Assembly: GCA_016187935.1 (NCBI GenBank)
Contig: JACPIU010000022.1
Coordinates: 1-64,000, forward strand
DNA length: 64,000 bases
Direction: 5' to 3'
DNA from: Bdellovibrio sp.
GTDB lineage: Bacteria; Bdellovibrionota; Bacteriovoracia; Bacteriovoracales; Bacteriovoracaceae
The notes under the pieces were generated by a model. The model worked only from the letters and a program-made list of their open reading frames with translations, was not told the DNA's origin and ran no database searches. Below are positions 33,702-37,237 of the stretch, piece by piece (the first letter of the stretch is position 1; each line of letters begins with the position of its first letter). The position numbers were made by a program, and so were the translations under genes.

Positions 33702-35264
33702 TCAAAAAACTCTGCTGAAATCGCTCCAAGCTGTCCAGCCGGATTCATATGTTCCATTCTCAGTGCGGAAGCGCCAATAATATTTAGTAAAGGCCTGAGA
33801 TACAGGCACCTTGAGCTTTTGGTAAGGAGTAGGGAATTCAAGTGAAGGTACGAATGCTTCTGCCAGTTCATCCATTTGATGAGAGCAGAATCGCTTGACT
33901 TGATCTCTCGATTTTTTGGGAATTTTTGCCAGACCCAGGTCACAACTTAAGAAGCGAGCAAACTTTGCTAGGCCAAATAATTTAGTTTCCTTGATGTTGA
34001 TTGTATGAATAACTGGGCGAATCGATTTTGCTACGACCGTCCATTTGTTTTCATAGCAAGGGTAGGGAATAAAAGCTGCCTTACACCATTTCCAATGTCG
34101 TTCCCACCAGCCAACTTGTACATCGTAACGTGTCGATGGATGGTAGTGATGATTTTTGTCAGCATCAAATAGCATGAGATAAGTGTCGCCTCCAAACGTA
34201 AATTGGATTTTATCTACCGGTCCTTGGTTTTTAATTCGATCATTTGGTCTCGAGGCCACTTCCACGTTATCAAGAGCTTGCTCAATGACATCCAATTGAG
34301 AACGCGAATGATCAAAAGCGAATCCATCATCAGGACCTCTTGCGACAAAAGATGTATTCATTAAGTTATCGCCGGCATGATGAAATGTTCCGCGTCCAAA
34401 AAACATGCCTCCTTCATAAGCATATTCGAGCGGGGAATGTCCCGGCGTTGTAACACGAGCGGGAAATTTGTCTAGGGTAATATTTTCGGAACCGTTATTG
34501 GCCAGGATATCGCTAATTCTGACAGGATAGAGGCCGCGAATGTTTTCCCAAAAGGCCTTGAGACCATCCCATCCCTCTCCGAAAGCGGCAAAAGCACTTA
34601 GAGCATCAACTGAATGAATATTGAGATTTTCAAAACCTGGCTCAACATATTCATCTAGAAAATTCAAACCTCCATGAGCTGTCTCATGGGATACGAGATA
34701 GTTAGAGGTAACATCGTTCTTTGTCACTAACACAATGCCATAGCGGGAGTTGATAAAAGACGGCGTCTTGGCATTAGCGGTGGTATCTGCCGTGGTGTTG
34801 AAAATTGCAATAGCACACCAGGGTTTAATATAGCGGCCATTTTCTCGCTGAATATCGACGATAGCTTCATGGACTTTATCTTCATCAAGCACAATGCCAA
34901 AGTTATCTCGAATAGGGTGGGGAATGATTTGACCGCCAAGGGTGGCCTTTTTACTTTCGAGCAATTCTCCCGGCATCCAGAACGATACAAAGAGAAATTT
35001 GTCCCTATATTTTTGCGAATAAACATCTGTTCCGGCGTGTACCATATTACTAGCGTAATTTTGAAAGGCCGTTTGAAATTCGGACTTGTCATTTTGAGTG
35101 AATCCGGTTGGTAAAACCACGATTTGCAAACGACCATCGTTTTTTTGTAAATCGCTTTCAGAGCACGGCTTCAATTCCCCCGTCAGGCAAGTCATTTCAA
35201 ATGCCTGTGCCGAGGAAATTGCAAAAGTTAAAGCTAGTAGACACTTTATAATATTTTTACTCAT
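33702..35264 (-). CDS. Secreted metalloprotease, peptidase M64-like
   Basis: A protein of about 520 residues with a signal peptide (MSKNIIKCLLALTFAISSAQA). The zinc site reads LVSHETAHGGLNFLDEYVEPG: HExxH followed by the DEY that marks family M64 (IgA-peptidase-like). VVLPTGFTQND near the start also matches that family's opening strand. The C-terminal 150 residues (GWWERHWKWC ... KVPVSQAFTKYYWRFRT) are a separate region without a known name. The ATG at 35264, behind GGGAGAG, overlaps the stop of the upstream gene. It probably acts in the periplasm or outside the cell. The target is unknown. Confidence 0.7.
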   Translation of the reverse strand: MSKNIIKCLLALTFAISSAQAFEMTCLTGELKPCSESDLQKNDGRLQIVVLPTGFTQNDKSEFQTAFQNYASNMVHAGTDVYSQKYRDKFLFVSFWMPGELLESKKATLGGQIIPHPIRDNFGIVLDEDKVHEAIVDIQRENGRYIKPWCAIAIFNTTADTTANAKTPSFINSRYGIVLVTKNDVTSNYLVSHETAHGGLNFLDEYVEPGFENLNIHSVDALSAFAAFGEGWDGLKAFWENIRGLYPVRISDILANNGSENITLDKFPARVTTPGHSPLEYAYEGGMFFGRGTFHHAGDNLMNTSFVARGPDDGFAFDHSRSQLDVIEQALDNVEVASRPNDRIKNQGPVDKIQFTFGGDTYLMLFDADKNHHYHPSTRYDVQVGWWERHWKWCKAAFIPYPCYENKWTVVAKSIRPVIHTINIKETKLFGLAKFARFLSCDLGLAKIPKKSRDQVKRFCSHQMDELAEAFVPSLEFPTPYQKLKVPVSQAFTKYYWRFRTENGTYESGWTAWSDFSRVF

Positions 35265-36054
35265 GACTATCTCTCCCTTCGCTTGATTCGTGAGCATGAT
35301 GTTGTTTATTTTCCGCCCATGTGAAGCTGTTAAGTTTTTTTTGAATACTGAGAAACTGAATTTTTGATGATTCATTCAAGTGCGATAGGGTGTGCTTTTG
35401 GAAATTGGAATTTCCACTGAAAAGATAGACGCTGGCCAAGGCCGTCAGGCCTAAGCCTTGCTCATTGCTCTTACTTCCATTGCCGAGTTGGATGAGAAAA
35501 TTGTGGGATAGTTCATGATCTAGGGGATGAAGCAATCCTACGATCATGGCCTTTTCATCAGAGGTAGATATGGCATAAATGGACAGCATTGTCTGTTCGG
35601 ATTTTATAAGATTTAACGTTCCTAAATTTTCAAGAATCCTATAGCGAATTTTCTCATCATGTGTTTGCGAAAAGATGGTTGCCATATTATCAATATGGCG
35701 TGGTCCAATCGCTCCTGAACTTAATTGCTGATAAATTTCCTGGGAGTGATCAGATAGTAAATCAGGGGAAAGGTCCAAAAGTTTCTGATTAGGGGGAGGG
35801 GCATCCACTTTGGACCATCCATCCTTCAAGAATACAGGGAGTGAGGATTTCTCTGACGGCAATTGCGATTCATTGTTGATATTTGTTGGCCTCCCATCAG
35901 AGGAATTCTGCTTTTGAATTCGAGGAGTAGAGGATGAAAGGTCCGATGCAGAAGTCGACCACAGCGAAGAGAAAATGGAATACAGGACTGCGCCAAGTCC
36001 CAGCGCCAACATGATAAGGGTTGTTTTTGATCGACTATTTTTCTTACTTCTCAC
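35257..36054 (-). CDS. Membrane-anchored helical-repeat protein
   Basis: A 265-residue protein: a short basic head, one membrane helix (about 12-30), a Ser/Asn-rich linker to about residue 75, then paired helices suggestive of HEAT-like repeats (about 95-250). The end overlaps the start of the M64-like protease by eight bases, so both are made together and this protein may anchor, inhibit or guide the protease. It has no named family. It is divergent from the MerR-B12 regulator, whose operator-like repeats lie in the shared gap. Confidence 0.6.
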   Translation of the reverse strand: MRSKKNSRSKTTLIMLALGLGAVLYSIFSSLWSTSASDLSSSTPRIQKQNSSDGRPTNINNESQLPSEKSSLPVFLKDGWSKVDAPPPNQKLLDLSPDLLSDHSQEIYQQLSSGAIGPRHIDNMATIFSQTHDEKIRYRILENLGTLNLIKSEQTMLSIYAISTSDEKAMIVGLLHPLDHELSHNFLIQLGNGSKSNEQGLGLTALASVYLFSGNSNFQKHTLSHLNESSKIQFLSIQKKLNSFTWAENKQHHAHESSEGRDSHE

Positions 36055-36211
36055 GCCCTTTCCCTATTTTCCATAACTTAGCCAATAATGCCAAGCGTTG
36101 ATTATCGCCTAATGAACGATGTTCACCAAGCAAAACAGAACTATTTGAAAAGATTACATGAATTGGAAAATAGGCTGTTTTAATGAGATAAATCATAGAC
36201 ATATGTTATAC

Positions 36212-36255
36212 ATGGCTAGCAAGTGTCTATAGAAGTGCTATAGTTGGGCATATAA
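36212..36255. promoter_or_regulatory. Tandem 11-bp direct repeats, CarH-like operator
   Basis: Three consecutive 11-mers share a central CTA at exactly 11-bp spacing: ATGGCTAGCAA (36212-36222), GTGTCTATAGA (36223-36233) and AGTGCTATAGT (36234-36244). A fourth, weaker unit TGGGCATATAA (36245-36255) follows and overlaps a possible TATAAG -10. They end 40 bases before the MerR-B12 regulator start, in the 241-base gap shared with the protease operon. Confidence 0.6.
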
Positions 36256-36295
36256 GTATCGTTATGTTGATAGTTGATAAAAAGGGGTTAGATTT

Positions 36296-37237
36296 ATGAC
36301 AGAGTATAGCATCCAAATGGCAAGTCGATTGAGCGGTGTGGGTATTCACACTCTTCGTGCCTGGGAAAAAAGATATCAAGCCGTTGTGCCGCAACGTTCA
36401 AATAATGGACGTCGAGTTTACAGCGATCAAGATATTTCAAAGCTGCGCATGCTAAATGAGTTGTGTGGTCTTGGTAGTTCAATTGGATCGATTGCCAATC
36501 ATTCTTCATCAGAATTAGAGCAACTTTTGGCAAAATTTACTGAGAAAGACAATAAACAACCCTCCGACATGCCTTTAACCTCTGTGACCAATAAAGTCGT
36601 ATCGCGTGATGCATTATCCCATCTCCTCTTGGCACTCCAGGCCTACAAGTTAGACGTGATATCCCATGAGTTGAATAAGCTTATTGGTGTACTCAATCCT
36701 AGAGAATTTGTGTTTGATGTCCTTTATCCATTATTGCAGGAAGTGGGGGCCAAAGTGAAACAAGGTGAAATGACCTTGGCCCAAGAGTTTGCTATTGCCT
36801 CTATTGTCAAATTCCATGTGGGCCATCTGCTCTATGGGACTTTTAGAAATACACGTCATAGTGATAAAGTTTTTCTGTTTGCAACTCCTGAAAATAATCA
36901 TCATGAATTTGGTATTCTCTTATGTGCTCTGATGTGTGTGCATTATGGGCATAAATTTTTCTATTTTGGTATGAACATGCCATCTGAGGCCTTAATTCAG
37001 GCGATCGCTGCACTCGAGGCAAATTACATTATTCTTGGCACCACCAATCTCATGCCAGAATATGTTGAAGCAGATTTAAATACCTATTTTACAGATATTT
37101 TAAATGGCTTAAAAGTAAACCAAAAATTGGTTGTTGGAGGTAATGGTACCTTTGCGATTGATCGATTTCATCGTAACCCCAAATTCCAATATCTCTCTTC
37201 ATTGCAACATTTTGATAATCTCATCAAGGATCTTTAA
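36296..37237 (+). CDS. MerR-family regulator with B12-binding domain (CarH/LitR type)
   Basis: A 313-residue regulator: a MerR winged helix (about 1-72; YSIQMASRLSGVGIHTLRAWEKRY), a helical linker domain (about 105-185) and a C-terminal cobalamin-binding Rossmann domain (about 190-310). The B12 motif ExHxxG reads NHHEFG, so the lower-ligand His and Gly are kept but the acidic residue is Asn. The helical domain lacks the WxxxEH segment of light-sensing CarH (here QEFAIASIV), so light response is uncertain. AAGGGG precedes the ATG. It probably represses its own gene through the repeats at 36212-36255. Confidence 0.85.
   Translation: MTEYSIQMASRLSGVGIHTLRAWEKRYQAVVPQRSNNGRRVYSDQDISKLRMLNELCGLGSSIGSIANHSSSELEQLLAKFTEKDNKQPSDMPLTSVTNKVVSRDALSHLLLALQAYKLDVISHELNKLIGVLNPREFVFDVLYPLLQEVGAKVKQGEMTLAQEFAIASIVKFHVGHLLYGTFRNTRHSDKVFLFATPENNHHEFGILLCALMCVHYGHKFFYFGMNMPSEALIQAIAALEANYIILGTTNLMPEYVEADLNTYFTDILNGLKVNQKLVVGGNGTFAIDRFHRNPKFQYLSSLQHFDNLIKDL

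Follow-up and report, generated by a model that had tools for sequence, protein, structure and literature searches.

Background

CarH operators are built from units of the form nnnnTnnACAn repeated at 11-bp spacing, and comprise three or four such units (PMC9304148). Myxobacterial operators extend down to one or two full units with degenerate flanking units, and the myxobacterial regulator CarA functions without B12 (PMC9304148). The CarH, CarA, and LitR proteins characterised in the literature consulted are repressors (PMC9304148, PMC9758184). The light response is associated with a residue signature consisting of GxxW, EH, GxxH, and GxxxP; the residue at position 132 is not the same in all proven photoreceptors (PMC11796333). 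A literature search for CarH or light regulation in Bdellovibrio and Bacteriovorax returned nothing relevant, and the papers searched contained no description from the Bdellovibrionota.

Here we analyze a MerR-B12 gene and its upstream region within a 64,000-nucleotide stretch of a Bdellovibrio sp. genome (contig JACPIU010000022.1, positions 1 to 64,000; hereafter the window). We propose, with a probability of roughly 75%, that positions 36196-36212 form a CarH-type operator, the TnnACA repeats of which would be read by the helix-turn-helix (HTH) of the gene’s own MerR-B12 protein, resulting in self-repression that would be released by a probably non-canonical signal.

A likely operator upstream of the MerR-B12 gene

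The gene at 36296-37237 (plus strand) encodes a CarH-like regulator of 313 amino acids, identified through profile, PDB sequence, and Foldseek matches. The domains PF13411 and PF02607 are found above cut-off and PF02310 below it. The protein contains both the MerR HTH and the two-part B12-binding domain that characterize AdoCbl-dependent CarH photoreceptors, and it scores 72.9 bits against the NCBIfam CarH model, for which the cut-off is 400. Thermus CarH is the top match by both PDB sequence and Foldseek, the latter across the full length. When residues 101-313 were compared using VIA-align, photocobilin and CarH B12 domains ranked together, with Z-scores of about 19-21. The positions of the HTH are invariant or nearly so.

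Upstream of this gene, the sequence TAGACA-N5-TATACA spans 36196-36212 on the plus strand. Both hexamers are perfect TnnACA matches and they begin 11 bp apart, at 36196 and 36207. Expressed as the published 11-bp unit (PMC9304148), the first repeat (DR1) occupies 36192-36202, with its hexamer TAGACA at 36196-36201, and the second (DR2) occupies 36203-36213, with its hexamer TATACA at 36207-36212. A possible degenerate repeat, GAGATA, is in register further upstream (36185-36190, plus strand), though it is weak and matches two of four core bases; the next register downstream of DR2, AGCAAG, does not match TnnACA. We evaluated the motif by shuffling the 241-bp intergenic region 2000 times with its dinucleotide composition preserved. 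A perfect TnnACA pair arose in 0.85% of shuffles (P = 0.0085) and TAGACA-N5-TAGACA, allowing no more than one mismatch, in 0.1% (P = 0.001), both values being computed post hoc on a motif already noticed, with TnnACA taken from the literature and the TAGACA form from homologues.

As judged from these sequence features and from the homologues described below, the pair is likely to be a CarH-type autoregulatory operator with the usual core, and autoregulation of the MerR-B12 gene can fairly be inferred. The initial annotation had placed a tandem 11-bp CarH-like operator with a different core sequence at 36212-36255. The idea of such an operator before the MerR-B12 gene is supported by these homologues, with its location better given as 36196-36212; the core is the known TnnACA rather than a new one.

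Two congeners encode an orthologous regulator, at 88% and 79% protein identity. Their DNA at the aligned DR1/DR2 sites reads TGGATA/TAGACA and TAGATA/TAGACA respectively; DR2 is conserved in both and DR1 only partly. A perfect TnnACA pair is present in neither congener at the aligned site (shuffle P of 0.2-0.25 each). Elsewhere in the intergenic region, TGAAAAgATTACAt (36147-36161) is among the most conserved blocks across the three congeners.

The repeat geometry recurs beyond the genus. Within 200 bp upstream of 34 extra-genus homologues, perfect plus-strand TnnACA pairs at a spacing of 11 were found in 13, against 0.2 expected from shuffles, and the other plus-strand spacings from 7 to 39 were found in 0-2 homologues each; these counts are descriptive, given that shared ancestry makes them non-independent and that a script chose the start codons. 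No perfect plus-strand pair was present within this range in 21 of the 34. On the minus strand, TnnACA pairs at spacing 11 occurred in seven, and no spacing of the inverted arrangement TnnACA...TGTnnA was enriched. The L017 homologue has four TnnACA units in register and L015 has three perfect ones. Among named loci of Bdellovibrionota and Oligoflexia, the pair was detected in 7 of 20 (0.1 expected), in a set that partly overlaps the 34 homologues (L164 is the G033 locus). The spacing-11 signal is absent from a mostly Bacteroidota set of homologues (1 of 57), and a control set of sodB upstream regions contained a single spacing-11 pair in 31, in a congener. A peak at this one spacing is hard to account for in other ways.

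Related clusters provide further observations. An Armatimonadetes homologue (L186) has two separate upstream TAGACA pairs at 11-bp spacing. Several relatives carry the MerR-B12 homologue next to photolyase and SDR genes. Pairs of TAGACA precede a photolyase gene (L083), a desaturase gene (L082), and an SDR gene (L084); these gene names derive from motifs read in translations rather than from family searches.

A changed sensor site

Residues of the sensor site were assigned by alignment to a Thermus CarH sequence, which agrees with the PDB chain in the stretches behind the residue calls. At the positions of CarH W131, H132, E141, H142, E175, and H177, the regulator has V, K, E, F, N, and H. Its signature reads GxxV, EF, and NxxH with GxxxP intact, and the full light-response signature is hence lacking. 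The cobalt-ligating histidine H177 is retained as the aligned histidine in NNHHEFG. Most family members keep both EH and the cobalt histidine, and W131 is absent from them too.

Canonical AdoCbl light sensing by this regulator is doubtful. With four of the aligned residues replaced (W131, H132, H142, E175) and E141, H177, and GxxxP remaining, the adenosylcobalamin and light mechanism implied by the initial annotation finds no support. Release is probably triggered by something other than canonical adenosylcobalamin photolysis, because residues that contact the adenosyl group are replaced. The regulator might instead respond to a cobalamin carrying a different upper ligand or to a partner protein, or might have no ligand at all. 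Searches of the genome, the completeness of which is given as 99.25%, yielded no match for the photolyase/cryptochrome domain PF03441 or for phytoene synthase (PF00494). The genome does encode a PduO-type adenosyltransferase, and AdoCbl can therefore probably be made.

These observations bear on an alternative in which the operator is as proposed and the regulator, despite its changed residues, is a working AdoCbl light sensor that binds in the dark and is released by light. This would be compatible with the retention of the cobalt histidine and E141, the presence of the adenosyltransferase, the photolyase genes adjoining homologues, and the variability of position 132 among proven photoreceptors (PMC11796333). 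However, V, F, and N stand at the W131, H142, and E175 positions, leaving GxxW/EH/GxxH incomplete (PMC11796333), and neither PF03441 nor PF00494 is matched in the genome. We regard it as unlikely.

The B12-independent class of LitR offers another point of reference. Class II LitR proteins are recognized by a missing Rossmann part, whereas this part is present in the regulator’s predicted model and matched to B12 domains. Two queries for LOV genes gave no match in this genome. In relatives, a LOV-motif gene (NCRFLQ) adjoins the MerR-B12 gene where the cobalt histidine has been lost to S or R (L089:9043-9615, L087:4610-5179, L156, L163, L164, L165). In the named set, a LOV gene is located within the examined stretch at four of six histidine-lacking loci versus none of 16 histidine-keeping ones, a count that covers few clades and in which L164 repeats L087. 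As the LOV gene lies beside regulators without the cobalt histidine in these relatives, sensor replacement is directly testable. A same-genus paralogue (G000:C21:2920-3867, L039) and the L040 and L041 genes have K or R in place of the cobalt histidine and no tandem TnnACA pair; two of these three directly follow an OmpA-like reading frame.

Promoter, divergent genes, and candidate targets

In the proposed mechanism, the HTH of the 36296-37237 product would read the head-to-tail 11-bp TnnACA repeats, a dimer or larger oligomer of the regulator would sit beside or over the promoter, and the bound protein would repress its own gene. A candidate extended -10, TGcTATAgT, is located at 36236-36244 on the plus strand and has the counterparts TGCTATATT and TGCTAGGAT in the congeners. 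It is a by-eye reading: a promoter scan gave nothing convincing over these positions, its only plus-strand result being a 9/12 match at 36267-36294.

Two genes are transcribed divergently on the minus strand, encoding a protein of 265 amino acids (35257-36054) and a protein with a HETAH motif (33702-35375). Neither has a family match at E 0.1; the motif suggests that the latter is a zinc metallopeptidase. The arrangement of the pair (33702-36054) is kept in the congeners and its intergenic region is shared with the regulator gene, on which basis control of the divergent operon by the regulator is possible.

Searching this genome for TAGACA-N5-TAGACA with one mismatch gave 11 matches, compared to 15 for a reversed-pattern control; the two congeners gave 8 versus 13 and 3 versus 14. 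The exact pattern occurs at 15 sites in 59 relatives, many of them intragenic. We rejected the pattern alone as a definition of the regulon, since matches are not above control and many are intragenic. Inspection of the 11 matches, which as a group do not exceed the control, drew attention to superoxide dismutase. Upstream of sodB in all three congeners (L104, L105, L106), TAGAAA, TAGAAT, or TCGACA precedes a shared TAGACA by 11 bp, in DNA that is alignable by descent. By eye, this TAGACA lies just upstream of a TTGATT-17-TACTTT-like candidate promoter, ending 4 bp before TTGATT. We consider sodB a candidate second target as a lead only. As a family-wide target it was rejected, as extra-genus sodB upstream regions do not contain the pair.

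These positions would also suit a regulator that binds the repeats and activates, given that the repeats precede the candidate -10 (36236-36244) by about 24-43 bp and, at sodB, lie a few bases upstream of the candidate -35. Such activation is nevertheless improbable: the characterised CarH, CarA, and LitR proteins repress (PMC9304148, PMC9758184), and both promoters were read by eye. A broader scenario can be envisaged in which the CarH-type regulator of this genus retained its operator as its light-sensing site decayed. The regulator would have moved out of a photoprotection cluster to control its own gene as well as superoxide dismutase, and would respond to cobalamin state, redox, or a partner rather than to light. 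This scenario is speculative and rather unlikely.

The CTA array at 36212-36255

The feature originally reported in this region was a series of CTA trinucleotides. Reading of the sequence confirms that these begin at 36216, 36227, and 36238, in exact 11-bp steps. Counted from 36210, the 11-mers are ACATGGCTAGC, AAGTGTCTATA, GAAGTGCTATA, and GTTGGGCATAT. Pairwise comparison of the first three gives 6, 5, and 6 identities over the 11 positions, and comparison of the fourth with these gives 2-4. Three CTAs at 11 bp occurred in 0 of 2000 dinucleotide shuffles; any 3-mer repeated three times at 11 bp occurred in 10%, rising to 40% over periods 9-13. The top-scoring tandem 11-mer trio of the intergenic region begins at 36184 (P = 0.25), away from the CTA units. 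The array is real, yet weak as a repeat (P of about 0.1-0.25), and alone is not clearly beyond chance. A fourth unit had been described as weak and lying over a possible -10; it is indeed weak. The candidate extended -10 contains the third unit. Comparison with the two close orthologues, proposed as a check, gave a mixed outcome. The first CTA (36216) is replaced in both congeners and the fourth unit is not kept, whereas the second and third CTAs are retained, the latter within a conserved GTGCTA (36236).

On the minus strand, the CTA units read TAGCCA, TAGACA, and TAGCAC. The second corresponds to TGTCTA (36224-36229), an inverted TAGACA. It is unlikely that the units at 36210-36242 are the operator in this inverted orientation, either alone or together with DR1 and DR2. 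TGTCTA (CGTCTA in one congener) and GTGCTA are kept in both congeners, and on the minus strand TAGACA-N5-TAGCCA departs from the pair by a single mismatch; against this, the first unit is lost in congeners, the third doubles as the candidate -10, no inverted spacing is enriched among homologues, and P is about 0.1-0.25. That the spaced hexamers are here by chance, the family signal not extending to the genus, would accord with the missing perfect pair in congeners and with one-mismatch matches being no commoner than control genome-wide (11 vs 15), but appears improbable given a site upstream of the right gene, a TAGACA conserved in both congeners, and a family-wide spacing peak.

Comparison with described systems

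The locus belongs to an already known type of system, here with its sensor decayed. If the DR1-DR2 pair is the operator, the CarH operator code extends to the Bdellovibrionota, TAGACA at 11-bp spacing would serve as a simple rule for target prediction in this phylum, and the lineage would be one in which the half of a B12 photoreceptor that binds DNA has been preserved while its sensor changed.

Like the CarH proteins of Thermus thermophilus and Bacillus megaterium, the regulator combines a MerR HTH with four-helix and Rossmann B12 domains and is preceded by tandem 11-bp nnnnTnnACAn units (PMC9304148). It differs from them in the replaced residues at W131, H132, H142, and E175, in a CarH model score of 72.9 bits versus a cut-off of 400, and in that no phytoene synthase was found. 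With the myxobacterial CarH and CarA operators it shares few perfect repeats and degenerate neighbors (PMC9304148), although no carotenoid genes are nearby here. The Pseudomonas class II LitR recognizes a different site, TGTACA-N12-TGTACA, and has only the four-helix domain (PMC9758184), unlike the regulator described here. The Pseudomonas protein is CarH-like, does not use B12, and works with a short LOV photoreceptor; likewise, in relatives an adjacent LOV gene goes along with loss of the cobalt histidine.
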